From Candidatus Daviesbacteria bacterium (lineage in GTDB: Bacteria > Patescibacteriota > Microgenomatia > Daviesbacterales > UBA10151): 32,311 nt of DNA. Shown in pieces: positions 3,079-28,127 of this stretch (position 1 is its first letter; every line of letters begins with the position of its first letter). The stretch covers positions 172,647 through 204,957 of the forward strand of contig JAUYKM010000009.1 of the NCBI GenBank assembly GCA_030699125.1, written 5' to 3'. The position numbers were made by a program, and so were the translations under genes. The notes under the pieces are model-generated. The model worked only from the letters and a program-made list of their open reading frames with translations. It was not told the origin of the DNA and did no database searches.

Positions 3079-4938
3079 ATGTTTAGAAGACATTTAGTTA
3101 GGTACTGGTATCTTTTAATATTTGCAATTTTTATTATAGTTACTCAAATTATCTTACTTAAGCCACATCTTAAGTATGGTTTTTCAGATGTTGATTGGGG
3201 ATTCTTAACAATTTATAAAACTCAGAATCCATACACATTAACACAATTTGTTGATAACTTTAAAGAGGGAAATACAAAGGGAGGAGTCTATACACATCAA
3301 ATTTATTATATTGGTATCCAAAGTGAATTTTTCGGATTAGATTTTGAAAAATATCAATTGACAACTCACATTTTTAAAATTTTGGCAATTTTTGCATCCA
3401 TCCCCATTTTTTTGGCAATCTCAGGAAGTTTATTTGTGGCATTTATATCAACACTTATTTTTGCATTTTCTTACTCTGCAGTTGGGACAATGTATACTAC
3501 GGTTACGAGCAGTGATTATTCAGCCATTTTTTCTGCAGGTTTGTTTGTTCTTTTATATTGGCAAATTATCAAAAGAAATACTGCTAATATTTTTGTAATA
3601 TCTTTATCCCTTTTATTATTATTGATTACACTATTTTTATCTACAGAAAGGATGTACCCTGTCCCCTTTTTTATATTAATCACGGAGATTTTTCTATTAT
3701 GGACCAGAAAGAGAATGGATAAGAATACATTCAAAAGAATATCAATCTTGCTTCTTCCTTTATTTTTTATTTTCCTTTTTCAACCTTTTGTTTTCCTAAG
3801 TTTCGTCATGGAACACGGGACAGAAATAATAAAAGGAGTCTCGTCAGGTAACATGAGTATATTATTGACACCGTTAATAGCTTTAGGAAGTGTCCTTATC
3901 CCTCCAAGCCTTATCCGATACCTAGGTTTTACAAATATAAATTATTTAAATTCAGTCTTTGATTTTTTCTTAGGGGGTCATACCCTAGTATTTATAATTT
4001 TAGCAATAATAATTGGAATAATCATATTTAAGAGTATAACTTCCACCTTACATATACTAGTTTTAACCCAAATAATGTTTACTCTGATATACATTCTCGG
4101 TATTAGCAATTCACAATATATAATAAGCGGCCAATCTACAGCTTACGCTTCTTTTGGAGGTTTTATTTTATCTATTGCTGCAACCAGTTTTATAAAATGG
4201 TTGAAAACTAAAGATAAAACCTTTGTAGCTTTATTTGCGAGTCCTTTATTAGCACTCTTATATATTATCTTGACATGGTTAGGAGCTTCAGTTGGCGAGG
4301 TATTCGCAGGTATCCATCGTTATCTGACTGTCCCGGCACTCTTAATGAGTTTATTCTTAGGGAATCTATTTGTTATTGCATTTCTAAGATTATGGAATCT
4401 CCCGAAACTTTATACAGCCTGTAAAGTGTTCTCAGTTATACCTGTATTGTTTTTATATATTTTTTTAAATATCAGTGCCAAAGAGATTCAGATTTTTTTT
4501 CAAATACAGTTGAGTCAAGGATTCGGAGCAGAAGATAAACAAATGATGAGAAGTCAATTACTTAAATATCTTGATAATTTATCATCTAGAGAACCCTCAC
4601 TTTTTTATTTTGATTTTAGTCAAGATAATGATAGAGGTTATTATTACGATAATACTATTACGGGAGGCTTTAAGACTTGGTTGCTTTGGCATGAAAACAT
4701 CAATCTTAACGAGGAACTAAAGCCCGAGATTTTTTGGAATAATATGGAAAGGTTGAAGAAGGCATATGTGGCATCAGAGGGTAGAGGTTTCATCTACCAC
4801 GCCCCTGAGGATCCGGTACCGGATAAATTTTACTCGTTTGATGATTTTTATGCCTTTAAATTAAAAAATAAGAAGGTAACGAATATAAAGGAAGAAGTTT
4901 TATCCCAATTAAGATTGACCAGTTCATTTAACAAATAA
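3079..4938 (+). CDS. Polytopic GT-C-like membrane protein, 600-aa paralog family member 1 (619 aa)
   Basis: A membrane protein with roughly a dozen hydrophobic stretches and a soluble C-terminal tail of about 150 residues. The first outside loop carries GFSDVDW (34-40), an acidic motif like that of GT-C glycosyltransferases, which use lipid-phosphate sugars. A mid-protein LIPPSLIRYLGF (from about 283) and IHRYLTVP (422-429) match positions in the 580- and 589-residue paralogs at 8635-10377 and 15976-17745. The tail holds SLFYFDF and a final YSFDDFYAFKL, a diverged version of the paralogs' FYFEGDG and YGFHLEGKD. It is transcribed alone, divergent from the GT2-asnB transcript, and its 3' end overlaps the convergent PMT-like gene by 15 bases. 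The GT-C call is inference; no family name is certain. Confidence 0.75.
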   Translation: MFRRHLVRYWYLLIFAIFIIVTQIILLKPHLKYGFSDVDWGFLTIYKTQNPYTLTQFVDNFKEGNTKGGVYTHQIYYIGIQSEFFGLDFEKYQLTTHIFKILAIFASIPIFLAISGSLFVAFISTLIFAFSYSAVGTMYTTVTSSDYSAIFSAGLFVLLYWQIIKRNTANIFVISLSLLLLLITLFLSTERMYPVPFFILITEIFLLWTRKRMDKNTFKRISILLLPLFFIFLFQPFVFLSFVMEHGTEIIKGVSSGNMSILLTPLIALGSVLIPPSLIRYLGFTNINYLNSVFDFFLGGHTLVFIILAIIIGIIIFKSITSTLHILVLTQIMFTLIYILGISNSQYIISGQSTAYASFGGFILSIAATSFIKWLKTKDKTFVALFASPLLALLYIILTWLGASVGEVFAGIHRYLTVPALLMSLFLGNLFVIAFLRLWNLPKLYTACKVFSVIPVLFLYIFLNISAKEIQIFFQIQLSQGFGAEDKQMMRSQLLKYLDNLSSREPSLFYFDFSQDNDRGYYYDNTITGGFKTWLLWHENINLNEELKPEIFWNNMERLKKAYVASEGRGFIYHAPEDPVPDKFYSFDDFYAFKLKNKKVTNIKEEVLSQLRLTSSFNK

Positions 4939-6243
4939 GGTACTTTGAATTTGGTTGGAAATAGCAAAGAAAGAGATAATGAAGATTGCCTGAAGGGTTA
5001 ATAGTCCAACTCTACTTTTAGTTGATTGTTTAAACAGATGGTATGTATACATACTAAACAACGCTAAAATAATTGGATATATGTGAGCTGAATACCTAGG
5101 CTCTACCGGTACTGCTAAGTAAGGTAATAAATTAATACCTATATATAAAGTTCCCAAGAAGGTAAAAAATTTTATTTTTCTTCTTTTTTCAACTAGGAAT
5201 ATATAGATTAAAACTCCTGATAAAATTAGGTAATTGGTCCCTCTTAATAGATGACTAACATTATCGGTGTTGCTAACATAGGCATCAATAAGATAAAGTT
5301 GGTCAAAAATAGAGAATAGATGACCAAGTATCATGACTGTATAGGTTGGAAGATCTTGCTTAATGTAATTTACTTGGCAGTTCAGTGGAGAGTTACAATG
5401 CCTACTTATTTTGTAATAATTATCCCAATTTATATATTGCATGAATGGATCCTTAAATTTAGAATCCAAGGTTGTATTAGTTTTATATAAATAGATTCCT
5501 ACCTTATACTGATGAAGAGCTAAGCCAGACGCACCTTCGGTAAATAAACCGAATTTATTGGTGACGGTAATTACATTCAGAGTAGCAATTAAAAAAATCA
5601 AAGCGCTACCGATTAAGAAAAAGATTAGCGGTTTAAAGATTCCAAGTCTAATCTGTTTAGAGATAACGTATAAAGCAATAAATAGGAATGGAATTAGAGC
5701 AGCAGGCCTGGTGAAAATAGAAAAAGCACTTGTCAAGCCAAGAGTGAAAAACCACCTATAATTTTGCTGCTGATTTGTTAACAGATAAAAGACCAAGCTT
5801 GCAAAAACAACGGAGAGATTTTCCGTTAGAAGCATATTGGTTAAACCCAAATTTATCACATTAAAAGAGCTAAAAAATAAAAAAAGATAAGCTATTTTTT
5901 TGGAAAATTTTTCTATTGATTTAAAAATAAATAAGTTTGAGATATGAAATAAGCTTAAATTAACAATATAGAAAAAAAATAGATTATATTCCTGACCAAA
6001 TAAAGAAAGGAATGTATGATTTAAAGCCAAAAAAGTAGGATAGACGAAGGTTCTGTTGTCATAATTAGTCGTTACGGGATTGAAATTATTGGAAATAACT
6101 TGGTGGGCCAATTTATAATATTGCAGTTGATCATAAATTATGGGAGGCGCCTGTTTAACGTAATAGATAAATATTAAAGTAGTTGAGAATAAATAAAAAT
6201 AAATTATTAAACGCTTCAATAAATTATTTTCTAAAATACCCAT
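4924..6243 (-). CDS. PMT_2/ArnT-like GT-C glycosyltransferase (439 aa)
   Basis: Predicted to transfer a sugar from a polyprenyl-phosphate donor to an acceptor on the outer face of the membrane. After a first membrane helix comes an outside loop with PPIIYDQLQYY (Asp38) and NRTFVYPTF (63-71). Helix-loop motifs LLTENL (Glu141) and FTRPAALIPF (Arg179-Pro180) follow the pattern of the PMT_2/GT39-like superfamily. A late EPRYSAHIYP supplies the Arg-Tyr-containing loop seen in other GT-C proteins here. About ten hydrophobic segments are visible. It is the last gene of the minus-strand block, 14 bases after the 190-residue orphan. Its 3' end overlaps the convergent 3079-4938 gene by 15 bases. Acceptor and sugar are unknown. 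Confidence 0.75.
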   Translation of the reverse strand: MGILENNLLKRLIIYFYLFSTTLIFIYYVKQAPPIIYDQLQYYKLAHQVISNNFNPVTTNYDNRTFVYPTFLALNHTFLSLFGQEYNLFFFYIVNLSLFHISNLFIFKSIEKFSKKIAYLFLFFSSFNVINLGLTNMLLTENLSVVFASLVFYLLTNQQQNYRWFFTLGLTSAFSIFTRPAALIPFLFIALYVISKQIRLGIFKPLIFFLIGSALIFLIATLNVITVTNKFGLFTEGASGLALHQYKVGIYLYKTNTTLDSKFKDPFMQYINWDNYYKISRHCNSPLNCQVNYIKQDLPTYTVMILGHLFSIFDQLYLIDAYVSNTDNVSHLLRGTNYLILSGVLIYIFLVEKRRKIKFFTFLGTLYIGINLLPYLAVPVEPRYSAHIYPIILALFSMYTYHLFKQSTKSRVGLLTLQAIFIISFFAISNQIQSTLFVK

Positions 6244-6257
6244 ATAAAACTTAATCC

Positions 6258-6830
6258 TTATCTTAGGGATACATTTAAAATTTGAATTGTTAAATTCTCT
6301 TCCAAATTAGGATTACTCCACTCAAAACGAATTTCATCGTAATCACCTGTCAGCCAATTGATTTTTGGACCTTCCTTACTGTCAAGATAAAAAGTTATAG
6401 TTCGTATTTCATCTTTGAATGAGGGTTCAACGGTGGCAGGTTTCCCTAGAGGTGGGGATCCACCCCTTCTAAAGATTCCAATCTTAAAGTTTATCTTTTG
6501 ATTGGTAATTAACTCTATATTTATTGTTTTTGCTTCGTATAATTTTTGAACTGGAATTAAGGTTTTACAGGAGAAAATACTACCTGAAGACTTCTTTGGA
6601 TATATTATTTCAAAAAAGGGTCTATCTCCCTCTAAACTGACACTTTTATAAAATAAAGGTTTAGTTTCTGATAGAATGCTCCAGCTTTCAAGATTTCCTA
6701 AATTACATAAACTAAAACTTTCTCTAAGTAAGGGGACATTCGGTTTAATTGAACGGATCAATAAGAGTGTTGTTATAAAGATCATAAATAGCAAAATGGT
6801 TTTGAAAAAAATGGCTGATCTTAATTTCAT
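6258..6830 (-). CDS. Membrane-anchored orphan protein, probably beta-rich outside domain (190 aa)
   Basis: Family not recognised. Residues 8-27 form one hydrophobic segment, followed by about 160 residues that should lie outside the membrane. These alternate short hydrophobic and polar stretches (for example TINIELITNQKINFKIGIFR and EIRFEW), suggesting a beta-sandwich, perhaps like a carbohydrate-binding jelly roll. That fold is a guess. Two cysteines (about positions 42 and 88) could form a disulphide. The ATG at 6830 overlaps the stop of the 602-residue GT-C-like gene by four bases (ATGA), so the two are likely translated together. A PMT-like gene follows after 14 bases. The context suggests an accessory subunit or acceptor-binding partner of the neighbouring membrane transferases. 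Confidence 0.7.
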   Translation of the reverse strand: MKLRSAIFFKTILLFMIFITTLLLIRSIKPNVPLLRESFSLCNLGNLESWSILSETKPLFYKSVSLEGDRPFFEIIYPKKSSGSIFSCKTLIPVQKLYEAKTINIELITNQKINFKIGIFRRGGSPPLGKPATVEPSFKDEIRTITFYLDSKEGPKINWLTGDYDEIRFEWSNPNLEENLTIQILNVSLR

Positions 6831-8635
6831 AAGTTTAATTCTTCTAGAATTTTTTGCTTAATATCAAATGCATCATTTTTGGTATATTGGATAGCAAAAA
6901 AATCTTCAAAAATATAATCCCAATTGAAAATTTTATTCTTTTCTAAGAGAATAGAACGAAGTTTATCTTTATCATTTAAAAAAATAACATTATTTATTTG
7001 GACTGGATTATAAAATCCAATCTGGGTTAATTTATGTCTTAAAATGTTTTCAGTGACATATTTTTCTTTATCTGTTAATTCACCTTCGTAATAAACTAAT
7101 TTTTCCTCCTTCTTATTTTTGACTTGTTCAAAAAAAGGTTTAGTAACTTTCCATAGATAATCTACGCTTTTTTTATCATCCGCCTCCACTCTGCTTATTA
7201 TTATTTGGCGAGTATTGATCAAATGGTAATTAATAAGTACTGGTATAAAGATAAAAATTGGTACGGCAATAAAAAGGGGGATAAAAATATTTTTAAAAGA
7301 TAGACTTCTGTACAAAACTAAATATCGGATTTTTTTAATAGATCGATATGAAAGCAGGAATATAACCCCTAATATAAGTCCCACTCCCATACTGGGGACT
7401 GTATAGTATCTACTGACAGCATAAAAAGCTGACTGAATATTATTTTCATCTTGCGGAAAAATTGCCCAGGGGAGCAGTAAATGGGTAGTTAAAATTAATA
7501 CTCCCAACATAAACAATTCCCAATACCCCTTATTTATTTTTAAAATGATCAAATTTAAAGGGATAAGGTATAAAAGGAAGGTCCCACCAATAAGTGTTGT
7601 AATAACAGCCGTGTTTTGCCAGTTTAAAGTGGAGTAAATTAATAATAAGGTTAATGGATAAATTAATGCAGGTAAAAAAGCAAATCCAATCAGAAATTTT
7701 TTTCTAGTTAGGAATATAAGGGCAAAAATGAATGTAGGAATAGAAATAATTGGAATCAGAAGTGATAAAGCAGTTTGAATATTTGTCAAAGGCAAATTAA
7801 TCAAAGCGCCTATATTAGAATAATAGAGAATTGTATTGCTATTCAATAAGATAAAAGAATGAATGATGGGAGGATAACCATTAACCAGAGACGATAGTAA
7901 CACTTGGGGAGATACTAATCTGAGGACTTCCGTAGTCACTTTTGTACTAGTAATTACAAAATATATAAAGATAATAATTAACAATAAAAGAAAATGTAAA
8001 ATTTTTAATTTTTTTGCAGTTGTTTGGCCGATATCAATTACAAAGAAATAAAGTTCTCCCGCAAAGATAATAAGCGGTAAAGCGTAAATTCTAAGGTGAG
8101 ATATATATAAGGCTGCAAAAAAACAAAACAGTGATTCTTTTAATAAGTTTCCTGATGGATTGTTATGAAAACTTCTCCAAAAATATAGTGATACACAAAA
8201 TAAGATGATGGAAGCATAAGCATGAAAATGAATTACCCATAAGGTATTTTCCAATCCTGGAGCACTAGAGAGGAAAAAAAGGGCGGCTATAATTCCTGTT
8301 ACTTTCACTTTACTCCACCAGGATATTAATAAATAGATTGAGACAGATGCTAAAAACCTAAGACCAACATTTAAGAAAAAATAAGCATTTTCATTTGGAC
8401 CAAAAATATAGCTGGCAATGCCAATCATAGCATAAGCTGTACCATATTGGCTTGTTAAATAAAATAGAATTGGGTTAGAGGAACGGATTACTCTTAATTG
8501 ATATTCCAATTCAAAATAATCCCACTCTCCAAGTCTTAAATCAACAATAGGATTAAATGTATAAAAAGTTAGTGGAATGACAAGAATTAAAAATAAAAAA
8601 TGGCGCTTAATCTGTTTTAATATAAGTTGAAACAT
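6827..8635 (-). CDS. Polytopic GT-C-like membrane protein, 600-aa paralog family member 2 (602 aa)
   Basis: Membrane protein with about a dozen hydrophobic stretches and a soluble C-terminal tail. Its first outside loop has LGEWDY (35-40), replacing the GDDW of its paralogs but keeping acidic residues around a tryptophan. The stretch TSQYGTAYAMIGIASYIFG (61-79) parallels TPYGAQDILMGFLYNIYG in the 580-residue neighbour. AVSRYYTVPSMG in the second half corresponds to the HRYL motif. The tail contains KLVYYEGEL, like the paralogs' LIFYFEGDG. I place the start at ATG 8635, which shares one base with the preceding stop (TGATG). A GTG at 8638 (four-base overlap) is the alternative and adds one residue. 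GT-C activity is inferred from motifs and context. Confidence 0.73.
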   Translation of the reverse strand: MFQLILKQIKRHFLFLILVIPLTFYTFNPIVDLRLGEWDYFELEYQLRVIRSSNPILFYLTSQYGTAYAMIGIASYIFGPNENAYFFLNVGLRFLASVSIYLLISWWSKVKVTGIIAALFFLSSAPGLENTLWVIHFHAYASIILFCVSLYFWRSFHNNPSGNLLKESLFCFFAALYISHLRIYALPLIIFAGELYFFVIDIGQTTAKKLKILHFLLLLIIIFIYFVITSTKVTTEVLRLVSPQVLLSSLVNGYPPIIHSFILLNSNTILYYSNIGALINLPLTNIQTALSLLIPIISIPTFIFALIFLTRKKFLIGFAFLPALIYPLTLLLIYSTLNWQNTAVITTLIGGTFLLYLIPLNLIILKINKGYWELFMLGVLILTTHLLLPWAIFPQDENNIQSAFYAVSRYYTVPSMGVGLILGVIFLLSYRSIKKIRYLVLYRSLSFKNIFIPLFIAVPIFIFIPVLINYHLINTRQIIISRVEADDKKSVDYLWKVTKPFFEQVKNKKEEKLVYYEGELTDKEKYVTENILRHKLTQIGFYNPVQINNVIFLNDKDKLRSILLEKNKIFNWDYIFEDFFAIQYTKNDAFDIKQKILEELNL

Positions 8636-10377
8636 CACAAGGTAGATAGTTTGTCGCGTAAAGCATCGGTAATATTTATCAATCGGTCCTTACCCTCCAG
8701 ATGGAAACCATATATTCTATTAATTGGGAATGGTTTTGCAGGTAGTCCGTATGCTTTGAGAGATTCTCCACTTTGAACAGCGGCGATAACTTCTTTAACA
8801 TCAGACATAGGAATTGGTAACCCCTCACCCTCTCTTAAATTATAAATTAAAGCCATATGAGGAGGAAAACCGAAGGTAATCACATCATGGATGATGCCTC
8901 CATTTGTTCCGTCACCCTCAAAATAAAAGATGAGAGGTTGTTTATCCTTTCCTACATCAGGAATGGTGGGGATACTTTTCCAGACTCTATCGCTTATTGA
9001 ACTGCTTCTTATTTGGGTAAGCTCGCTTAAATAATTTCTAGTGGAAAAAAGGTGAATAATCAAAAGCAATGAAAAAAGGGCCAGCAAAATTCTTTGCTGT
9101 GTTACATTTTTTGTCAAACTTAAGATTATTGATAAAAATATAGTAGTAGCCATACCGGTAACAATTAGGTACCTGTGAGTTGTCAAGTACAAACTATTGG
9201 GAACCCACCACCAGGCAAAGAAGAAGGATAACAAGAGCCAGCATAAGGCCAGGAACAATCCGTCAGAATAGCTCTTTTTGAATGACTTCAGTAAAATAAT
9301 CAATCCCAAAATTAAAATATAACCTCCAAATAAAACTAGTAAGATGAGAGCAGAGTTCGAAAAAGTTTGGCGGTTCCCAAGATAAATAAAAACAACCAGG
9401 ATATTCCAAACAAAGCTTAGTATTACCCCATCACGAAACAATTTTTTAATATTAGCCTTAATATTTATTTGTAAAATAAACAAGATTATTATAAAAAGTA
9501 AGTAAGATGGAATTATGGCGAATATGAACAGCTGTGTTCCTGAAGAAATCAGTCTCCCTCCTCCCAATATATTATCAGGGATAAAAGTGCTGCCAATGGT
9601 GGCTATTGGATAGGCAAGAAAGTCGAACTTTCCTTCCGAAAGCATCGCCAAATCTGTTTTTATTCCCAGCATAAATCTTTCTGCCGGTTCCTGTTTGGGA
9701 CCCTGCGATTCTCCTCCGTACCTGATAATTAAGAAAACCATAACTATTACTAATAATCTAAATAACACCGCTTTAGCAATTTGCTTATTTCTATTTTTAA
9801 TTAGCCAAAATAATTCCAGGAGGAAAATCAGGAAAATCGAACCATGCATTCTAATGGGAGTAACCACATAGGCAAGATAATAAAAAATTGCAGCTGGAAA
9901 AATAAGTTTTTTTGAAGCCGTTTCCCTAGACTTTAAAAAAAAGAATAAGAAAAAATTAAAAAGAGCGATTGTTACATATGTAGGCATATTAAAAACCCAG
10001 TTGGTAGTATCTAGTCCGGCCGAAGTGATTGAGAAAAAGAGAACAGCAAAATATGCTGCTATTTTGCTGTTTGTGAAATAAATTATCAGAGGATAAAAAG
10101 AAAGAGCCGCAATAAATCTTAATGCAAACGATGTTAAGTAATATGGAAGTGAGCTAAATCCATAAATGTTATACAAAAAACCCATTAAAATATCTTGAGC
10201 CCCGTATGGTGTTAAAAAGTAACTAAGATGCGTTTCACCCCTTACAGATTGTGGACCCAAATGCTCTATATACCTCCAAAAAGCCAACCAATCATCTCCA
10301 AACAGGGATAAATTAAAACTTGGTAAAAAAGCAATTAAACTAAATAAAAGTATTAATATGAAAGGTAATAAAAACAC
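8635..10377 (-). CDS. Polytopic GT-C-like membrane protein, 600-aa paralog family member 3 (580 aa)
   Basis: Begins with a GTG codon at 10377; the next in-frame ATG lies deep inside the conserved region. After one membrane helix comes FNLSLFGDDWLAFWRY (Asp28-Asp29-Trp30), the probable acidic catalytic motif of a GT-C enzyme. Other landmarks are TPIRMHG (173-179), TFIPDN (264-269) and THRYLIV (400-406) at the start of a late helix. The soluble tail, about residues 440-580, contains LIFYFEGDGTN (482-492), FGFPPHMALIY and a final IYGFHLEGKDRL. That tail is very close to that of the 589-residue protein at 15976-17745, so these two are the nearest paralogs. The 39-base gap upstream shows no clear ribosome-binding site. 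Sugar and acceptor are unknown. Confidence 0.77.
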   Translation of the reverse strand: MFLLPFILILLFSLIAFLPSFNLSLFGDDWLAFWRYIEHLGPQSVRGETHLSYFLTPYGAQDILMGFLYNIYGFSSLPYYLTSFALRFIAALSFYPLIIYFTNSKIAAYFAVLFFSITSAGLDTTNWVFNMPTYVTIALFNFFLFFFLKSRETASKKLIFPAAIFYYLAYVVTPIRMHGSIFLIFLLELFWLIKNRNKQIAKAVLFRLLVIVMVFLIIRYGGESQGPKQEPAERFMLGIKTDLAMLSEGKFDFLAYPIATIGSTFIPDNILGGGRLISSGTQLFIFAIIPSYLLFIIILFILQINIKANIKKLFRDGVILSFVWNILVVFIYLGNRQTFSNSALILLVLFGGYILILGLIILLKSFKKSYSDGLFLALCWLLLSFFFAWWWVPNSLYLTTHRYLIVTGMATTIFLSIILSLTKNVTQQRILLALFSLLLIIHLFSTRNYLSELTQIRSSSISDRVWKSIPTIPDVGKDKQPLIFYFEGDGTNGGIIHDVITFGFPPHMALIYNLREGEGLPIPMSDVKEVIAAVQSGESLKAYGLPAKPFPINRIYGFHLEGKDRLINITDALRDKLSTL

Positions 10378-10416
10378 ACTTTGATAATACTTAATATTTA
10401 ATTAAATTAGCAAGCT

Positions 10417-12771
10417 TCAATTACGATATGTTTTCCAAAGCTTGACTCCATTACCTAAGCCTGACCAAATTAGTTTAGCTTCACAAGAACAAATGGTTTT
10501 AGGATCAACGGTTTCTCCTAAAACCAGATAATCATACCAATCAGAAAATTTACCATATTGTTTAGGCTCAACATCAATTAAGCCGTTATAGAATGCTCCA
10601 CCGGGTTTTGAGTAGAGCTGCCGATTTATGAGTAATAGTCTTAATGCTCTAAAAATATTCTCAGTAATATTAGGTGGATAATCTATATAATATTTTCCCT
10701 TCATAGGAGCAATTCGATTCAGTTCGGAAAAGGTGCCTACTAAATTTTGTGCTTCATACAGATATTTATCCAAAACCTGGTAAATAATGATATCACTGGG
10801 AATCTCAAAAGGGTAGCCAAAAAGAATATATCCGGAAAATTGATGCATAGGTTTAAAATAGTAAGGGTTTTGTAAATCGTCTTGTCTACTTTTAGGCAAA
10901 TTTGTACGATACTCGCGGCTTGTAATAATATAATCTACTCCGAGTATTTTAAAAGTTTCCGGGTTAAGGGTATAGTAAAAATCGAAAAAATCAGGACTAG
11001 TATCGTAAAGACCGAACACAAAGGGCTTGGAAGGCCAAATAGGTGTTAATACACCTGCTTCCCTTGCAAGTTCCAAATTTGAAATAGAAACAGGATTTGT
11101 ATAAATCAATGAAATAACATCTTTGTCATAAGCTATGTTTTTTTTAATCCATTCGTATACTAGATTAATATTTGGTTTAGTGGTTATTAGGAAATTTTCC
11201 TTTTTCCTCGGAAAAAGATTTACAAAGATAGGTGTGATAGATGTTATGAGAATCCAAATAATGAGATAGTTAAGTAAAATTTTAAAGATCGCAATTTTGA
11301 ATTTTATAAAATTTAAAAAGTATACAATTAAAAAGGCGATACCTAATCCTGAAAAATAAAAAGACCATGTTAAAAATCGATTTCCATTCGGATTTGTATA
11401 TCCTTTAGGTACTAATCCGAAATAAGCTACAAGGGAAGTAGCAGCGCAAATTAATAAGATCCATATTAATATCTTGTCTGGAAAATTTTCATGATTTCTA
11501 CTCTTAGAATAAACAAATGCGCTTATTAGTAGTATAAGCAACTGGATATAAATGGCGGGATGAAACCATGCTAGTGGATTGTATTGTTCATCTGAAAAAA
11601 ATTTATTAGACGATTGATTCAAACGGTAAGTTCTATACAGGTATTCTCCATCAGGAGGGAAAATAAGTAAGAATTTAATTCCATATCTATTCAGTATTGA
11701 TTCCGTAACGATTCCTCCCTGAAAAAGAATTAGGGGTAAACTAACAGCAATGAGAATTAACACGTATTTTGCAAGTTTTTTAAAGGTGATTAAATAAGAG
11801 GCAAAAATAATGGCAGGGAAGGACAGTATAAAGATTGATTCATTTATAAGTGCAATGGCGGCTATAAAGATTGTTAAAACAAATATTACCCATCTTTTAT
11901 TATTTGGAAACAGCAGTGGAATTAATGCTGCCAAAAATAAGGAAAGACCTAAAGAGTGATGTAGAAAATAGATTAATGTGTCTACCTCTCCAAATGTGCC
12001 GTAATGTTCGAAAGATCTAGTGAGGGTCGGTAAATTTTTAAGCCAATTTATTAACCCGTTCTCCAAATTAATACTAAAATTAATTGGCCAGGCCAACATT
12101 ATATTCCCGATGGAAATTAAGCCGAATATTGGTGGAATAAATGATGTGATAAACCATTTAAAATTATTTAAGCTATCTTTTAGAAAAATATACGTTAGGA
12201 TTTGACCAATACATATAAGCAAAATGAAACTCAAAAAGGCATGTATGAAGTAGTAAGAGGCTGATGTAAAAATCTTTAAAGATGCCAAAAGCTCTAAGCC
12301 TCCAATATGGTAAAAAATAATATATGCCGGTTGCCAAGGTTGATATATAGGGTAATCTCCTCTAATAAATCTTGAAGTTAATGTGTAATAAACTGTTGAG
12401 TCGGCGCCATCAATAATTGAATGGGCTGCAATCTGATACGAAAAAATTACCCATATTGTTAGGGAAACAATCCAAAAGTATTTCTCGCTACCTTTCGGAA
12501 ACTCGATTTTATAAGATGGAATCTTAAAATGTACAATTATAGCAAAAATAATTTGTATTAATAAACTGAAATAAATAACAGGAGGACCTTTGATGACATG
12601 GGCCAATAAATTAATTACAAAGATATGGAAGGTGATACCAAACAATAGGCCTACTGGGAGTAAAATTTGTGCCCTGTTGTCTTTAGTTGCTCTTTTTATT
12701 ATTATTAAGCCAGTTATCAGTAAGATTAGGCAATAAAAAAATATCTTAAAATAGATTAGAATATCTATCAT
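10417..12771 (-). CDS. Large polytopic membrane protein, GT-C/oligosaccharyltransferase-like (784 aa)
   Basis: Roughly the first 520 residues alternate hydrophobic helices and loops; the last 260 are mostly soluble. The loop IIDGADSTVYYT (119-130), then SRFIRGDYPIYQPW and YIIFYHIGGLELLASL, resembles the acidic first loop and DYP-like segment of GT-C/STT3-type proteins. NGNRFLTWSFYFSG later carries the Arg-aromatic motif seen in the other GT-C-like proteins here. The C-terminal part has FKILGVDYIITSREYR, a phrase typical of large bacterial membrane glycosyltransferases of the YfhO/GT-C type. It is longer than, and not obviously homologous to, the four 600-residue paralogs. It starts at ATG 12771, seven bases after a methyltransferase gene. 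The exact family is not certain. Confidence 0.7.
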   Translation of the reverse strand: MIDILIYFKIFFYCLILLITGLIIIKRATKDNRAQILLPVGLLFGITFHIFVINLLAHVIKGPPVIYFSLLIQIIFAIIVHFKIPSYKIEFPKGSEKYFWIVSLTIWVIFSYQIAAHSIIDGADSTVYYTLTSRFIRGDYPIYQPWQPAYIIFYHIGGLELLASLKIFTSASYYFIHAFLSFILLICIGQILTYIFLKDSLNNFKWFITSFIPPIFGLISIGNIMLAWPINFSINLENGLINWLKNLPTLTRSFEHYGTFGEVDTLIYFLHHSLGLSLFLAALIPLLFPNNKRWVIFVLTIFIAAIALINESIFILSFPAIIFASYLITFKKLAKYVLILIAVSLPLILFQGGIVTESILNRYGIKFLLIFPPDGEYLYRTYRLNQSSNKFFSDEQYNPLAWFHPAIYIQLLILLISAFVYSKSRNHENFPDKILIWILLICAATSLVAYFGLVPKGYTNPNGNRFLTWSFYFSGLGIAFLIVYFLNFIKFKIAIFKILLNYLIIWILITSITPIFVNLFPRKKENFLITTKPNINLVYEWIKKNIAYDKDVISLIYTNPVSISNLELAREAGVLTPIWPSKPFVFGLYDTSPDFFDFYYTLNPETFKILGVDYIITSREYRTNLPKSRQDDLQNPYYFKPMHQFSGYILFGYPFEIPSDIIIYQVLDKYLYEAQNLVGTFSELNRIAPMKGKYYIDYPPNITENIFRALRLLLINRQLYSKPGGAFYNGLIDVEPKQYGKFSDWYDYLVLGETVDPKTICSCEAKLIWSGLGNGVKLWKTYRN

Positions 12772-12778
12772 CCAGTTA

Positions 12779-13660
12779 TTATTTTATAGGTTTTAAACCT
12801 AACGAAGTGGTGTGCATTCCAAATAACCTTAATACTTTGACATTTTCCATCTGTTCTGCCAATTTGATCATAGGAATTATGATCAGTTTATCCCATGCAA
12901 ATTTTGCCATCCCATTTATATTTTTCCATTCAATAAACAGATCAGTATATCTTAGGATGTGGGGGAACAATATCATGCCAGTTGTTTTAATATTTGTGAA
13001 TCCAGCCTGCTTAAGCCATTTTCTTTGTTCCCAGGGAAAATATGAAGGTTCATAACTGGTGATGTGTTTAAATAACTTATTTGTTAATTCATTTACAAAA
13101 TATGAACCCCACATATCAAGCTTATTATTAACCCCTGTTATAAATATCCCGCCTGGTTTTAAAACCCTAAATGCCTCATTAACTGCTTGTTGATTTTCTC
13201 TAATATGCTCAATGGTCCCGAAACTGAAAACTATATCAAAGGTATTAGATTTGAAAGGTAGTTTTCGTATATCCCCTACTTTAAAGTTTTTAACATTCAA
13301 TTTTTTTGAAAAATTTCTTCTGGCCAGTTTAACAACTTCTTTTGATAAGTCAACACCAAAATACTCATACTTTCTTTGTATAAACCAATCAGCCAATGTG
13401 GCAGTCATAGTTGCCTCATTGTAGAGATCAAGTTTTAATACTTTAAGACCCTTCTCATTAGGCACCCATTTCCTTAAATGTTTAGTAATAATTTTGACAA
13501 AATAGAGGTCCGTAAGTGTAGCCTTTTTTAATTCTTTATGTGGACTATTTTTAACAACAGCATCCCATCTTTTATCCAGATCCTTATTTATTTTTTCCCA
13601 ATTATGATAAAAATCGTTTTTATCGTATGTAGATAAACCGGGGGAGAGTCTAATTCTCAT
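12779..13660 (-). CDS. Class I SAM-dependent methyltransferase with atypical motif I (293 aa)
   Basis: Predicted to methylate a sugar or related glycan precursor in the cytoplasm. The core follows the Methyltransf_11 pattern: FGVDLS (101-106) with the acidic residue binding the SAM ribose, GDIRKLPF (119-126), [13 protein letters not shown] (131-143) and VLKPGGIFI. Motif I is unusual: where most class I enzymes have a glycine-rich E/DxGxGxG loop, this one reads [10 protein letters not shown] (74-83). I recall similar K-x-D-L variants in some methyltransferases, so activity is not excluded. The ATG at 13660 overlaps the decarboxylase stop by four bases (ATGA), and the 784-residue membrane protein follows after seven bases. 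Confidence 0.82.
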
Positions 13661-14979
13661 AGTAATTTATTAAGTATATCTGAGGGGCTTTCCTTCTTTC
13701 TTAAGTAAGTAAGTTGTCCTTTATCAGTAATAAATAATGCATCGGGTCTGAGCAGAGTAAACTGATTTGAGCGACTTAAAGAATATGCACCAGCATCTAA
13801 GACTATCACGACGTCTCCTACTTCCATCTTAGGCATTTTTTGGTCAACAGCTAAAACGTCTGCAGTGTTAAGTGACGGACCCGCTATATTATATTTATGG
13901 TTTGTCCTTGAGTTTATTTTATTTGCTACTATAAAACCACGCCGAATAAAGAAAATACTTTCAGGGATTAAATTTATACCACCGTCAATAAATATCCATT
14001 TATCCTTAACTGCTACAACTTTTGTTACTAGAATGCCAGTATCTGATACTATAAATCTCCCCGGTTCTAGAATAAGCTTCAGATTTCCCAGATTATATTT
14101 ATCAACTTGATTTTTAAAACGGTTAGCGATTCTTTTTCCGAAATCCTCTATTGGCGCTGCTTTACTATAATTTGAGATACCAGCCTTTTCTAAAATTACA
14201 TTTTGCAATGAATAATAATTAAGGCTTTGGATGCCGTATCCTCCGCCGATATTAATTTCTTCTATATTTATATTAAGTTCTGACTTGAGTATGGAAGCAA
14301 GTTGGATAAGCCTATCGACAGCCTTTTCATAATAAGAAGGATCAGTAATCATAGAACCAATATGGGTTGAGATAGCTATTGGTTCTATGTGAGACATCCC
14401 TTTTGCGATTCTATAACTGTCAACTGCTCTGGATATAGGAACTCCAAATTTAGCAATGTATCCTTCAATAAAACTCTTTAAAATAGACATTTTAATTTCA
14501 GGAAATATCCTGAAGCTTATTCTCACTCTTTTATTTATTCTTTTAGCGATAGTATTTAACCTTATTAATTCGTCTACTGAGTCTACGTTAAAGGTTTTAA
14601 TATTCTTCTTTATAGCATTTGCAATATCTTCATCTGTCCAAGCCGGGCCATCAAGTATTATTTGTTGACCCCTAAAGCCTGCCTTTTCCGCAAGTAATAT
14701 TTCCAGATATGATGCAGCTTCAGTAGATGCATTTAAGTCAAGTAATGTTTTAAGTATCTTAGTTTCATAATTTGTCTTGATTGAATAATAAATTCCAGTG
14801 TTTCGATAATATTGATTAAATGCTTTATAAAATAGTTGATAATTATCGATAAGTCGTTTCTGAGAAAAAATAAAAAACGGACTTTCAAATCTACTGGTAA
14901 GTGTTTTAATTAGAATTTGATCAAAAAAAACCTGTTTTTTCCTGATATTAATACCGCTTAATTTAATTTTAGGTTGCAT
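13657..14979 (-). CDS. PLP-dependent decarboxylase, LysA/ODC group with catalytic Cys replaced (440 aa)
   Basis: Belongs to the alanine-racemase-fold decarboxylases (diaminopimelate and ornithine/arginine decarboxylase group). The barrel domain shows YYSIKTN with PLP lysine Lys68, His206 in STHIGS (stacks on PLP), the phosphate-binding GGGYG (245-249) and EPGRF (305-309). The C-terminal beta domain shows DAGAYSLS (395-402) with Tyr399. In LysA/ODC a G-P-x-C-E-S-x-D motif gives the catalytic cysteine from the partner subunit; here it reads GPSLNTAD (367-374), with Leu370 at the cysteine position. Substrate is unknown. Related proteins occur in exopolysaccharide/exosortase clusters. It starts four bases after the epimerase gene and its stop overlaps the next methyltransferase start (ATGA). 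Confidence 0.88.
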
Positions 14980-14983
14980 ATTT

Positions 14984-15979
14984 TTATAAAGCCCTTATGG
15001 CATTTTTTATCCCTTTTTCATAATCAATTTTAGGATTAAATTTCAACTCTTTTTTAGCCTTCCTAGTATCATAACTAAAATTATCAGTTAATGTATAGAC
15101 CTTAACTGGTGAGATAAATGGTTCTTTTTTAAATAAATTTGGCAGTAACATAAATCCTATTTTATATATCAATTCATAAATATAGGCAACCAATAGAACT
15201 GGTAATCTAGGAATATATTTTAAAGATATTTTAATATTTAATTCTTTTCTTATTAACAAAAGTAAGTTATAAAGTGTTATTGGTTTAGCTGCTGCTAAGA
15301 TATAAGTTTGATTATGTCCGCCCATTTCTATAGCATTAATGAATCCTTGTACCAGGTCGTCTATGTAAATTAGGTGCAGAAGATTTTTTCCATTTCCAAT
15401 GATCAAAAATCTATTGTTTTTAACAAGGCTAATCATCTTCACCAGCATTCCTCGTTCGTTATCATTTGGACCATAAATTATTGCCGGCCTGATAATTGTA
15501 TAAGGAATATTGAAGTTACTAGATAATTCTTTGGTAATTTCCTCTGCTCTAATTTTACTTTTACCATAGATCCCCAATCCTGAAAGAAGAGAAGTTTCGT
15601 CTGCTGGAATTTTAGATAATCTTCCCATAGCGTAAACTGAGCTTGTGATTATAATATGTTTCAAAGAGGATTCTTTGCTAAAAAATTTTTTAATAACCTC
15701 GCTATTAATCTTAAAAAACTCTTCCTTAACCCCCCAGTTTGCTCTGATACCGGCAAGATTTACTAAGATATCACACTTATTCAATTGCCCGATAAAGGTT
15801 TTATGATGGGTTAAATCTCCCAATATCACCTTTATGCCCATTTTCATAAAGAAGGGGGTATCTGATTTTTTCCTTAATAGAACTGTAATCAGATATTTTC
15901 TTTTATTAAGCTTCTTGACTAAATGTCTACCCACAAAGCCACTTGCACCAGTTATAAACAATTTCTTTTTGGGAGTCAT
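14984..15979 (-). CDS. NAD(P)-dependent epimerase/dehydratase, extended SDR (331 aa)
   Basis: A sugar-nucleotide-modifying extended short-chain dehydrogenase. The N-terminal Rossmann motif is TGASGFVG (10-17). The catalytic set is Ser113/Ser114 in IITSSVYAMG and Tyr138-x3-Lys142 in IYGKSK. IIRPAIIYGPND matches the substrate-domain entry of WcaG-like enzymes. Length is normal. The reaction (4-epimerisation, 4-reduction or other) cannot be read from the sequence. Its ATG at 15979 overlaps the stop of the preceding GT-C-like gene by four bases (ATGA), and it ends four bases before the decarboxylase start. It is one of two SDR epimerase-like proteins in the window, and the two are not close copies. 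Confidence 0.88.
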   Translation of the reverse strand: MTPKKKLFITGASGFVGRHLVKKLNKRKYLITVLLRKKSDTPFFMKMGIKVILGDLTHHKTFIGQLNKCDILVNLAGIRANWGVKEEFFKINSEVIKKFFSKESSLKHIIITSSVYAMGRLSKIPADETSLLSGLGIYGKSKIRAEEITKELSSNFNIPYTIIRPAIIYGPNDNERGMLVKMISLVKNNRFLIIGNGKNLLHLIYIDDLVQGFINAIEMGGHNQTYILAAAKPITLYNLLLLIRKELNIKISLKYIPRLPVLLVAYIYELIYKIGFMLLPNLFKKEPFISPVKVYTLTDNFSYDTRKAKKELKFNPKIDYEKGIKNAIRAL

Positions 15980-17745
15980 TTTAAATCTATTAGTTTCCTT
16001 CTAGTACTCTCGGTTGTATCGATTAAATTATCTTTTCCTTCTAGGCGGAAAGAATAAATCTGTTCAACAGGGATAGGTTTTTGAGGGCGATTGTGTGGTG
16101 CTAAAGATTTGCCATCTATGACTGCAGATGTTACGTCTTTCCATTCGCTCATAGGTATAGGCATCAAATTTTCCTCAGTGATCTTATAAATTATTCCCAT
16201 ATGGGGAGGAAAACCAAAGGTTATGCTATCACCAACTATGGCTGCATTTGTACCATCTCCCTCAAAATAAAATATTAAGGGTTCAGTACTCCTCCCAACC
16301 TCCGGTATATAAGGCATAGAAGACCAAATTTTTCTCACTGTTTCCCTACTGTGAGTTTTATATTGCTGGTTTAGATAATTTCGAACAGTGTTAGAATGAA
16401 TAAGCAAAAAAATGCTGCCAATCACAAGTAATGTCAGTATACTCTTAGAATTTTTTCCAAGTCCAATTATCATTGCCAAAAGCAGGGATATGCCTACACC
16501 TGAAATTATTAAATAACGGTGACTAGTTAAAAAAATAGATCCTGGCGATACCCACCAAGGATATAGGAAAGAAATAATTGTCCATGCAAGGGCAATCAGA
16601 AGCCCACCCCTTACAGAGATATCTTCCTTCAGGAAAATAATTAATGAGAAAATTATAATCAAGAAATCCCCCCCTATTAGGAGTAAAGATATATAATTTA
16701 CATTGGAAAATGTAGTCAAGTTAAATTTGGAGATCACGGAAACAAATATAGCCCAGAATACTGACAGAGAGAGTAAGGTAGGAAAAAATTTGCCACTTAA
16801 ATTTTTAATGCTTTTATATAAAATAATTGCTAAGATAGAAAAAATAAAGAAAATTGGTACAAATATTTTTGATAAATACTGACTCAAAGAAGTGATTTCC
16901 CCTCCATGACGTAAGAAAGAATCCGGGATAAGCATACTTCCTATGGTAGCGACTGGATAAAACAAAAAATCAAAGCGACCTTGAGAAAAGAAAGAAAGGG
17001 TGTTATTTAATCCATTGTTGATTCCAATGACAGGATTGCCACTGATACTTTCCTTAAGACCAAGAAAATAAATCATTAAAAAGATTAGAAAAAATCCCCC
17101 CAGTCTCATTAAACTCGATTTGACTACTTTTCTACCCCTCTCAGATATCACCCAAAAAATTTCTAAAAAGATCATAAAAGGTAATAGTCCGTGAGCTCGA
17201 ATTGGATTAGAAGTAAATGTTAAGAAAAAGAAAAGGTAAGATAGAAATAGATATTTTATTTTTTTCTCTTGACGGAATCTGAAGTAAAACAGGAGAAGAA
17301 GATTAAAAAAGATTATTGCCAGATATGACGGCATGTTAAATACCCAAGCACTTGTTTCAAGGCCGATACTTGAGAATAAGAAAAAAAAACAGGCAAATAG
17401 GGCCGCAACTTTTTTCTTAGTGATATAAAATGCGGGCAAATAGAGAGAAAAACTGGCAATTACTCTTAGAATGTATGAGGTAAGAAAATAAATGTTTGAA
17501 TCTTGACCAAAGATTTTATATAGAGAGGCCATGATGGTATCTTGAGGACCATAAGAGTTAAAGAAATAGGTGAATCGATTAAAATAATCAGCAGAATAGG
17601 GGCCTAAGTGTTTAGGAGTTTCTGTATAGTAAAAATATCTAAATATGGTTAGCCAGTCATCCCCAAAAAGACCGAGATTAAAAAAGGGCATAAAGATTAC
17701 TACATTAATCAGCAAAATTAAAAGAGTAGTGAATAAAAGAATCAT
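15976..17745 (-). CDS. Polytopic GT-C-like membrane protein, 600-aa paralog family member 4 (589 aa)
   Basis: The open frame extends to 17820, but I place the start at ATG 17745. From there the protein aligns with the start of its closest paralog at 8635-10377 (both reach LFGDDW about 28 residues in), and the overlap with the upstream methyltransferase gene disappears, leaving 16 bases. Landmarks numbered from that Met: LFGDDWLTIFRY (27-38), NPIRAHG (180-186), MLIPDSF (271-277) and TSHRYLIISG (407-416). The soluble tail has PLIFYFEGDGTN, FGFPPHMGIIY and a final IYSFRLEGKDNL. Around a dozen membrane helices are visible. Probably a GT-C glycosyltransferase using a polyprenyl-phosphate donor (inference). 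Its two-gene separation from the closest paralog suggests a duplication followed by rearrangement. Confidence 0.77.
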   Translation of the reverse strand: MILLFTTLLILLINVVIFMPFFNLGLFGDDWLTIFRYFYYTETPKHLGPYSADYFNRFTYFFNSYGPQDTIMASLYKIFGQDSNIYFLTSYILRVIASFSLYLPAFYITKKKVAALFACFFFLFSSIGLETSAWVFNMPSYLAIIFFNLLLLFYFRFRQEKKIKYLFLSYLFFFLTFTSNPIRAHGLLPFMIFLEIFWVISERGRKVVKSSLMRLGGFFLIFLMIYFLGLKESISGNPVIGINNGLNNTLSFFSQGRFDFLFYPVATIGSMLIPDSFLRHGGEITSLSQYLSKIFVPIFFIFSILAIILYKSIKNLSGKFFPTLLSLSVFWAIFVSVISKFNLTTFSNVNYISLLLIGGDFLIIIFSLIIFLKEDISVRGGLLIALAWTIISFLYPWWVSPGSIFLTSHRYLIISGVGISLLLAMIIGLGKNSKSILTLLVIGSIFLLIHSNTVRNYLNQQYKTHSRETVRKIWSSMPYIPEVGRSTEPLIFYFEGDGTNAAIVGDSITFGFPPHMGIIYKITEENLMPIPMSEWKDVTSAVIDGKSLAPHNRPQKPIPVEQIYSFRLEGKDNLIDTTESTRRKLIDLK

Positions 17746-17761
17746 ATTGCAAATATAAAAG

Positions 17762-18340
17762 CTACACTTTTTGTAATTTAAAAGCAATATGTGAGAAAGG
17801 ATACAAAAAAGGCCTTTCAAGCTTAATTGTCTTTGATTTTAATCCTAATTTTTTAAATAATTCTTGCCAGTTTTCTGTATTTCTAAAAGTTAGTGGAATA
17901 AGTAAATCACCATAATGAAATTTATTAAGTAATATATCAGCAATCTTTCCCATAAAAGTTGGTTCTGCTTCAAAGATTAATACCTTATCTGCAATATTAA
18001 TTGCTTGATTAATTAATTGTTCCTGAGCTTCTTTAGGGATATGGTGGAGAACATCATTTAATAGAGCTGTGTTGAATATTCTGCTTGTATAGGGTAGCTG
18101 ATCATTTACAATCTTTTTAAAAGGTATCTTATACACCAAGTAGTTTTTTATATCACATCCTTCGATATCAATTCTAAAATATTCTTTTAGAAATTGCGTA
18201 GTAATACCATTTCCACAACCAATATCTAAAACCTTATCGCCTTTCTTTAGCCAGTTCTTATAAGCTTCAACAATTAACCTAGAGCGGTAGGAAGAAGTAG
18301 CCTTAGTTATTTTTAAGCCAAAAGTAGAAAGTATCATCAT
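17762..18340 (-). CDS. Small class I SAM-dependent methyltransferase (192 aa)
   Basis: Motif I is intact: KVLDIGCGNGITTQFL with GCGNG at 41-45. It is followed by EGCDIKNY (acidic residue for SAM ribose) and the post-core stretch FNTALLNDVLHHIPKEAQEQL, typical of Methyltransf_11/25 enzymes. The target is unknown; methylation of a sugar or lipid carrier precursor is plausible from the neighbours. It is the first gene of the ten-gene minus-strand block. Two consecutive ATG codons (18340 and 18337) could start it. The gap to the divergent GT2 gene is only 36 bases, so its promoter must lie in or next to that gap. Confidence 0.85.
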   Translation of the reverse strand: MMILSTFGLKITKATSSYRSRLIVEAYKNWLKKGDKVLDIGCGNGITTQFLKEYFRIDIEGCDIKNYLVYKIPFKKIVNDQLPYTSRIFNTALLNDVLHHIPKEAQEQLINQAINIADKVLIFEAEPTFMGKIADILLNKFHYGDLLIPLTFRNTENWQELFKKLGLKSKTIKLERPFLYPFSHIAFKLQKV

Positions 18341-21139: not shown

Positions 21140-22876
21140 ATGTATATTTTGGGTATACATAACAGTCATGATGCATCAGTGTGTTTAATCAAAGACGGCA
21201 AAATTGTATATTATATTCAGGAAGAAAGACTTAATGGTATAAAGCACTTTGGACCTGCATTGCCAATGCATGCCCTAGATCTATGTTTCGAAACCCAAAA
21301 AATTTCTCAGAGGGATTTAGATATAATCGTTATTCCCGGATTACATCAGATTAAGGATATAAAGTTGCTATTTCATGCCCAAAGTAGTGAGAAAATTGAC
21401 ATTAGTTCAAATGAAACAAAATTTTCCGATAAACTGCGAGCCATGGCAGTAAATGCTGCTGGCTATTTCAGTTATTTGAATATTACAGATCAAATGGACT
21501 TTCCGGTTTATAGACCTACCTACCCCATAAAAAGTAAAACCAGATTATTACAAGTTAATCACCATCTTTCACATGCTGCATCAACCTATTACACCTCTGG
21601 GTTTGATGAATGTCTAGTAGTAACCGCAGATGGTTCTGGGGATGGACTATCTGTTACTGCTTGGGTGGGTAAGGCAGGAGAACTAAAACCGGTTATTAAA
21701 ATAGGTAGGAATGGCTCTTTAGGTTTTTTTTACAATATTGTGACTGAAGCGCTCGGTTGGCAAATTAGTGAGGGCGAAGGGAAGACAATGGGATTGGCTC
21801 CCTATGGTACTACCAATAAAACTAAAGGTGTCTTAGATTTCATCACCCCTGTTTATTCTGACGGCAGATTAGTTAAACCACAATTTTTTGGAATTTTTAA
21901 ATCCTGGAAAACAGATGGAACTTTTCATTGGCATACGCCACAAAGTTCAAAGGTTAAAAAACTAATTGATAAATATGGCAGGGAGAATATTGCAGCAGAG
22001 GCACAAAGAGTTTTAGAGGAACAAATGTTAAATTTTGTACTTCCTTGGATAAAAAGAAGCGGCATAAAAAAAGTAGCTGCAGCAGGTGGAGTGTTTCTTA
22101 ATGTAAAAATGAACCAAAGAATTTGGGAAAGCGGACTCCTGGATGATTTCTATATTTTTCCAGATGCAGGTGATGCAGGGTTAACCGTAGGTTCAGGATT
22201 ATTTACTAATTACTCTGTTTTGAAAAACAGATATATTCCTAGAAGAATAAAAAATACTTACTGGGGAAAAGAATATTCAGATGAAGAGATTGAGAAAATA
22301 TTACGTTTAAGAAAAATTAAATTTACAAAATATGCAGATAAATCAAAATTAATTAAGGATACAGCGATGTTTTTGGCCAAAGGTAAAATCGTGGCTTGGT
22401 TTCAAGGAAGAATGGAGGCAGGCCCTAGAGCTTTAGGAAACAGATCAATTTTGATGGATCCCAGAAAAGCTGAAAATAAAGACATCATCAATTCGCGGGT
22501 AAAGTTTAGAGAAGGTTTTAGACCATTTTGTCCTTCAATGACTCCTGAAGCAGCCAAAAAATATTTAATCAACCCAACTTCGGCAGATTTCATGATCATT
22601 TCTTTTGATGTACCTAAACAATTGGTACAAGATATTCCTGCTGTTGTTCATGTTGATAGAACAGCCAGACCACAGGTTGTTACCAAAGAAGCAAATCCCT
22701 TATATTTTCAATTGATTGATGAATTCGGTAAATTAACGGGAGTACCAGTCTTGCTTAATACTTCTTTTAATATAAAAGGACAACCAATAATCGAGGACCC
22801 ACAAACTGCTATTAAATGTTTCTTTGATACGGGTTTAGATTATCTAGCATTTGGGAATTTTCTCTTGAAAAAATAA
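21140..22876 (+). CDS. O-carbamoyltransferase, NodU/CmcH/TobZ family (578 aa)
   Basis: Transfers a carbamoyl group from carbamoyl phosphate, through carbamoyl-adenylate, onto a hydroxyl such as a sugar OH. The N-terminal Kae1-like domain begins YILGIHNSHDASVCL. It carries the metal-binding NHHLSHA (140-146, HxxxH), the nucleotide loop VVTADGSGDG (160-169) and AAGGVFLNVKMN (314-325). The C-terminal YrdC-like domain shows FQGRMEAGPRALGNRSI (421-437), FRPFCPS (460-466) and LLNTSFN (538-544). Length is normal and no key motif is missing. A ribosome-binding stretch GGAGAAGG (21123-21130) precedes ATG 21140. Placed between a methyltransferase and sugar-nucleotide genes, it probably carbamoylates a glycan sugar. 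Confidence 0.93.
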   Translation: MYILGIHNSHDASVCLIKDGKIVYYIQEERLNGIKHFGPALPMHALDLCFETQKISQRDLDIIVIPGLHQIKDIKLLFHAQSSEKIDISSNETKFSDKLRAMAVNAAGYFSYLNITDQMDFPVYRPTYPIKSKTRLLQVNHHLSHAASTYYTSGFDECLVVTADGSGDGLSVTAWVGKAGELKPVIKIGRNGSLGFFYNIVTEALGWQISEGEGKTMGLAPYGTTNKTKGVLDFITPVYSDGRLVKPQFFGIFKSWKTDGTFHWHTPQSSKVKKLIDKYGRENIAAEAQRVLEEQMLNFVLPWIKRSGIKKVAAAGGVFLNVKMNQRIWESGLLDDFYIFPDAGDAGLTVGSGLFTNYSVLKNRYIPRRIKNTYWGKEYSDEEIEKILRLRKIKFTKYADKSKLIKDTAMFLAKGKIVAWFQGRMEAGPRALGNRSILMDPRKAENKDIINSRVKFREGFRPFCPSMTPEAAKKYLINPTSADFMIISFDVPKQLVQDIPAVVHVDRTARPQVVTKEANPLYFQLIDEFGKLTGVPVLLNTSFNIKGQPIIEDPQTAIKCFFDTGLDYLAFGNFLLKK

Positions 22877-22894: not shown

Positions 22895-22923
22895 TTGACG
22901 ATTGGAAAAGTTTAAGCTAAACT
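22895..22923 (+). promoter_or_regulatory. Predicted internal promoter before the Gfo/Idh gene
   Basis: TTGACG (22895-22900) and TAAACT (22918-22923) are 17 bases apart. Transcription would start about 22930, just before ATG 22935. This could give separate expression of the sugar-nucleotide half of the plus block. It also argues against the in-frame TTG at 22902 as start, since that codon lies inside the spacer. Confidence 0.4.
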
Positions 22924-22934
22924 CCACAAAGCGT

Positions 22935-28116: not shown

Positions 28117-28127
28117 TAGAGTTGAAA

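Follow-up and report, generated by a model that had tools for sequence, protein, structure and literature searches.

What do four membrane proteins of about 600 residues, encoded in one locus of a small bacterial genome, contribute to the cell, and how did the locus come to hold several of them? The genomes of CPR bacteria are very small, and these bacteria are presumed to live attached to or next to other cells, which makes the cell surface the contact point with the partner. To our knowledge, the building of CPR surface glycans has been little studied, and our literature search returned nothing specific on surface-glycan GT-C families of these bacteria. The window analysed here, a stretch of 32,311 nucleotides from a Candidatus Daviesbacteria genome (G000, 1.13 Mb in 19 contigs; contig C8, positions 172647-204957), encodes the four proteins P0001 to P0004. 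We assign a probability of roughly 0.8 to the view that these four, together with two copies outside the window, are GT-C-fold glycosyltransferases; the extracytoplasmic mechanism proposed below is one reading of how they would work.

Six homologous copies in one genome

The four open reading frames were found at the positions and with the lengths given in a preliminary description of this DNA, apart from one corrected end. P0001 (3079-4938, forward strand, 619 residues) belongs to clade II/IV, and P0002 (6827-8638, reverse strand, 603 residues, GTG start; its end had been placed at 8635) belongs to clade III. P0003 (8635-10377, reverse strand, 580 residues, GTG start) and P0004 (15976-17745, reverse strand, 589 residues counted from the ATG at 17745) are both members of clade I; an in-frame TTG at 17820 offers an alternative start for P0004, which would overlap the adjacent gene. 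The motifs that had been described as shared are present in all four proteins. The acidic Trp motif is located at residue 36 in P0001 (SDVDW), 37 in P0002 (GEWDY, part of an LGEWDY that retains the Asp of the catalytic position) and 26 and 27 in P0003 and P0004 (FGDDW, in P0003 as LFGDDW). The motif near residue 410 appears as HRY at 413 in P0001, SRYY at 409 in P0002 and HRY at 401 and 409 in P0003 and P0004, and the segment in the soluble tail as YFDFSQ at 510, YYEGEL at 516 and YFEGDG at 485 and 493, in the same order.

P0001 to P0004 are real homologues. All six pairs are more alike than chance, with Smith-Waterman z values of 10.1-52.7 against a background of local shuffles (20-residue window), and nearly all control pairs with other compared proteins remain at z ≤2.6, the exceptions being P0003-P0005 (5.8) and P0004-P0005 (4.7). 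P0005 may be another distant GT-C protein, considering its weak similarity to P0003; P0005 (4924-6243) and P0007 (26558-28081) are further polytopic proteins of the window with no Pfam match. To call some of the four near-copies, as had been done, is too strong, because the closest pair, P0003 and P0004, is 42% identical and the other pairs are 15-21% identical. The description of a four-member family holds for the window but not for the genome, where a search with P0004 found six members, all within a 26-kb stretch (C8:164428-190391). The fifth copy, of clade III (L035:7907-9715, reverse strand), and the sixth (L035:14082-16031, forward strand) are both located to the left of the window. In the compared loci, the family defined by an iterated HMM comprises 77 matches.

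Predicted fold and the nearest structural relatives

Neither Pfam nor NCBIfam contains a family matched by P0001 to P0004 up to E = 1, and within these two collections the earlier remark that no named family shows this combination of features is thus borne out. The same scans were empty for the neighbouring P0005 to P0008, and one relative out of 31 reached Pfam PMT_2, at 0.0097; scanning the window for Rfam families and tRNAs likewise gave no match. Searching the PDB sequences with a profile gave nothing meaningful (best E 0.19), and therefore a comparison of folds was needed. The AlphaFold2 model of P0004, built from an alignment of 30 sequences from the window and public records, has a pLDDT of 90.8 and a pTM of 0.91, and consists of a GT-C membrane core, recognised as such with Foldseek, with a helical EL1 between TM1 and TM2, and a soluble tail of about 110 residues. 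P0004 is the one copy for which the fold was predicted, the others being placed by homology. The Foldseek matches of the model in the PDB that rank 1 to 19 are without exception GT-C enzymes (probability 1.00), among them STT3 (E = 3.9e-5), ArnT (4.2e-4), DPY19 (1.2e-3), AglB (3.1e-3) and PglB (4.2e-3). The TM-scores are moderate, 0.33-0.43, and therefore speak for the same fold class and for no close relative, leaving activity unproven by fold. Structure prediction, the fold search with P0004 and the conserved motifs together support the GT-C type that had been proposed. The data show homology, copy number, deep divergence, residue conservation and gene linkage directly. Whereas the fold of the family and that of P0008 are predicted, the enzymatic activity, its direction, the donor, the acceptor and the role of P0008 are what we infer.

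Other membrane proteins of polysaccharide pathways come to mind as well. A polytopic protein of about 600 residues with a variable sequence, encoded in a polysaccharide locus, could be a polymerase, an O-antigen ligase or a flippase rather than a GT-C enzyme of the ArnT/STT3 type. However, polymerases and ligases are not among the fold-search matches listed, transporters are matched by Foldseek with a probability of 0.1-0.4 compared with 1.00 for GT-C enzymes, and Pfam yields no polymerase or flippase match; we consider this explanation highly improbable. A role closer to the structural matches would be that of an oligosaccharyltransferase or a ligase-like enzyme, which moves a whole lipid-linked glycan, not single sugars, to a protein or carrier: STT3 subunits are the best structural matches, and AglB and PglB are found within the top 16. 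Such a role is nevertheless unlikely, given that the WWD[YW]-type sequon-binding motif occurs in 0 of 47 family sequences, that the soluble tail has only about 110 residues whereas the soluble domain of PglB and AglB is larger, and that six copies accompanied by ArnC/GtrB-type synthases fit the decoration with single sugars better. Membership in the oligosaccharyltransferase family GT66 was ruled out by the missing WWD motif in the 47 sequences.

Conserved residues

In P0004, D29-D30-W31 are located directly after TM1, where GT-C enzymes hold a catalytic acidic residue. In the family alignment of 47 sequences (P0004 numbering), R183 and Y411 are invariant (47/47 each), E195 is kept in 43, and position 30 is occupied by Asp in 41 and by Glu in four sequences. 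D30, R183 and the R410-Y411 pair resemble residues that are important in other GT-C enzymes, a correspondence based on motifs and on location along the fold rather than on superposed structures. In ORF12 of GT136, activity is abolished by D31A and R349A and nearly abolished by Y350A (PMC11127046), and TMTCs have a DD motif in EL1 and an Arg ahead of TM10 that have been assigned to the active site and the lipid phosphate (PMC7801869).

On the one hand, 14 out of 26 sequences of clade II/IV, all of them from other genomes, have Tyr, Trp, Gly or another residue in place of R410, and D30 is substituted in six of the 47 family sequences; some relatives may therefore lack activity or function in another way. 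This variation, as well as Foldseek matches to the GPI transamidase chains 7w72_U and 8imx_U (E 0.01-0.04), would be consistent with some or all copies being non-catalytic GT-C-like scaffolds that bind lipid or glycan, as PIG-U does in GPI transamidase. On the other hand, D30, R183, E195, R410 and Y411 are all present in each of the six host copies despite identities down to 15%, which argues against scaffolds; we regard them as quite improbable and retain the reading of the family as GT-C glycosyltransferases.

Age and distribution of the copies

The host genome's six copies require six separate placements in a tree of 59 relatives, and the nearest relative of each copy is found in another genome, not in its own (37-55% identity). 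Therefore, the paralogues are either old or have moved between lineages. The preliminary description had assumed repeated duplication, which stands in a deep sense only: the copies belong to separate clades common to other genomes, so that neither recent or local duplication nor a locus-specific set of copies agrees with the tree. Recent tandem duplication as the origin was ruled out by the tree and the nearest-relative tests. Other genomes of the host's taxonomic family contain up to nine matches each. Among the samples of 281 class and 380 phylum genomes, every full-length match scoring above 200 bits comes from the class of the host, chiefly from its own family; weaker matches elsewhere mostly cover the first 200-300 residues, at a level that any GT-C relative might give. 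The named relatives found in a collection scan with a nine-row alignment of closer members are mostly Candidatus Daviesbacteria (Microgenomates/Patescibacteria).

Genomic context

The family-2 glycosyltransferase encoded head-to-head with P0001 (2026-2985, reverse strand) matches ArnC (7.7e-49) and GtrB sll0501 (8.8e-39) over nearly the full length; judged by this similarity, it is a probable polyprenyl-phosphate sugar synthase. Shorter family-2 enzymes encoded near other members have weaker matches to ArnC and dolichol-phosphate mannose synthase, and family-2 genes directly adjoin family members in G000, G004, G009 and G015. The enzyme beside P0001 and the R/Y residues that resemble a phosphate site are circumstantial evidence for polyprenyl-(pyro)phosphate sugar donors. 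Two genes for GtrA-family flippases are located in the host genome outside the window, and Pfam found no flippase gene, GtrA included, in the window itself.

The surrounding genes fall into several groups. A SAM methyltransferase of 192 residues (17762-18340, reverse strand) is encoded directly upstream of P0004, and wherever this methyltransferase occurs in the compared loci (five copies), it adjoins a clade I member. Between P0006 and P0004, a methyltransferase, a PLP decarboxylase-like enzyme and an NDP-sugar epimerase (12779-15979, reverse strand) form a block that recurs in G020 with 51-73% identity; the PLP enzyme, although within a glycan locus, is ornithine/DAP-decarboxylase-like. Sugar-nucleotide genes for a GFO/IDH oxidoreductase, a hexapeptide acyltransferase, a DegT aminotransferase and an epimerase follow at 22902-26568 on the forward strand. 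The window also encodes family-1 and family-2 glycosyltransferases, NDP-sugar epimerases, a carbamoyltransferase, a formyltransferase and several methyltransferases, and its content of sugar-nucleotide and glycosyltransferase genes identifies it as a surface-polysaccharide locus. The carbamoyltransferase and formyltransferase genes at 21140-22876 and 28122-29045 suggest that the surface glycan contains carbamoylated and formylated sugars.

Some neighbours recur beside particular family members. P0006 (10417-12771, reverse strand), a polytopic protein of 784 residues that has about 13 hydrophobic stretches and is matched by no Pfam family, is encoded directly upstream of P0003, and its relatives have the same position relative to family members in three other genomes (L043, L045, L054); a relative also exists in the host genome (L071:14265-16634). 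A DUF5667 protein of 168 residues is encoded at L035:6252-6755, and in four other genomes (L038, L043, L046, L059) its relatives are encoded immediately upstream of members of clade II/IV.

A candidate acceptor-binding partner of clade III

The partner of clade III is P0008 (6258-6830, reverse strand, 190 residues), for which an N-terminal membrane helix and a CBM-like beta-sandwich are predicted. A P0008-like gene for about 190 residues directly follows the clade III member on the same strand in six out of six distinct members from three genomes. The sixth of these pairs (L068:8829-10730 with L068:8255-8872) comes from a region that was fetched as a test after the pattern had been noticed, and behind the clade III member L035:7907-9715 two P0008-like genes are arranged in tandem (L035:6762-7328 and 7336-7941). 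A P0008 profile found matches in two of the 281 class genomes, the same two that hold strong clade III members; the third genome, G021, is known through its own loci.

The model of P0008, built from a shallow four-row alignment, has a pLDDT of 80 and a pTM of 0.70. Its PDB matches are those of a beta-sandwich in a broad sense and include CBM4, CBM11, CBM86, CBM27 and CBM29 at 2e-5 to 4e-4, as well as MAM domains and others. Two cysteines, C42 and C88, are invariant in the six aligned copies. In G003, three distant GT-C relatives (L050:6683-8770, identical with L013:382-2469; L050:10412-13099; L051:6131-8611) carry an F5/8-type C (galactose-binding-like) domain at the C-terminal end, the match being significant in two cases. 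A review from 2021 speculated that small GT-Cs may need a second, acceptor-binding protein and gave no example (PMC8035078); P0008 is a good candidate for such a separate acceptor-holding protein. That the clade III GT-C and P0008 form a two-subunit glycosyltransferase, in which the tethered P0008 presents the growing surface glycan, we put forward tentatively, at somewhat less than even odds. The fused module of GT136 binds the acceptor glycan, yet it was dispensable under the conditions tested (PMC11127046); therefore, a cell without P0008 might be affected only mildly.

Proposed mechanism

The best reading of the family is that of GT-C transferases in multi-component extracytoplasmic glycosylation, whose members probably act on the outer side of the membrane, adding sugars to the surface coat. 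In this scheme, family-2 enzymes of the cytoplasm, for example that encoded at 2026-2985, would load a sugar on polyprenyl phosphate, and a flippase would move the charged lipid to the outer face. There, Arg and Tyr residues of the GT-C protein near the membrane face (R183 and R410-Y411 in P0004) may hold the lipid phosphate, and D30 after TM1 could serve as the base that aids an acceptor hydroxyl of the surface polysaccharide in attacking the donor sugar, so that each GT-C would transfer its sugar to the surface glycan on the extracytoplasmic side. In clade III, represented by P0002, the task of holding the acceptor chain would fall to P0008, the separately encoded CBM-like protein with its predicted membrane tether. 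Separate copies may add separate sugars or use separate acceptor positions, and six copies would then correspond to several decorations; a distinct linkage or acceptor for each copy, suggested in the preliminary description, is plausible given the clade-specific partner genes. A six-copy GT-C family that is uncatalogued in Pfam and NCBIfam and has clade-specific partners in a 1.13-Mb genome provides concrete genes for experiments, and with the P0002/P0008 pair it can be tested directly whether GT-C systems employ separate subunits for acceptor binding.

Comparison with known systems

ArnT (GT83) with ArnC shares with the family the GT-C fold (5ezm, 4.2e-4), an acidic residue after TM1 and a soluble C-terminal segment, and the gene arranged head-to-head with P0001 codes for a relative of ArnC over nearly the full length. 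Unlike ArnT, the family has six diverged copies, and there is no detectable sequence similarity (no Pfam match); moreover, we know of no reason to expect a lipid A acceptor in a CPR cell. STT3, AglB and PglB (GT66) are the best fold-search matches for P0004, but the family differs from them by the lack of the WWD motif, a smaller soluble domain and the absence of a sequence match. In the TMTC/PMT clan, EL1 holds a comparable Asp pair and an Arg precedes one of the late TM helices, and the likeness to TMTCs extends to QDEW and KET motifs in distant relatives of the family; however, the window proteins have no PMT_2 match, and R183 replaces KET in the family proper. The multi-component transmembrane glycosylation systems of Firmicutes (CsbB/GtcA/YfhO and others) combine a GT2 Und-P-sugar synthase, a flippase and a GT-C with an outer-loop acidic motif (PMC8035078), the logic that we propose for the family as well, although their GT-C belongs to a different family. 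The three-component system of GT136 (Citrobacter ORF12) resembles the family in the Asp after TM1, the Arg-Tyr pair relevant for activity and, through clade III, a putative sugar-binding module (PMC11127046), a likeness of motif and position, CAZy families having been compared where Pfam models exist. In GT136 the CBM is fused, whereas the CBM-like protein of clade III is a separate, membrane-anchored product and none was recognised for the other clades. If the proposed pairing is true, clade III and P0008 represent a split version of the fused-module arrangement in GT136, EmbC and AftD.
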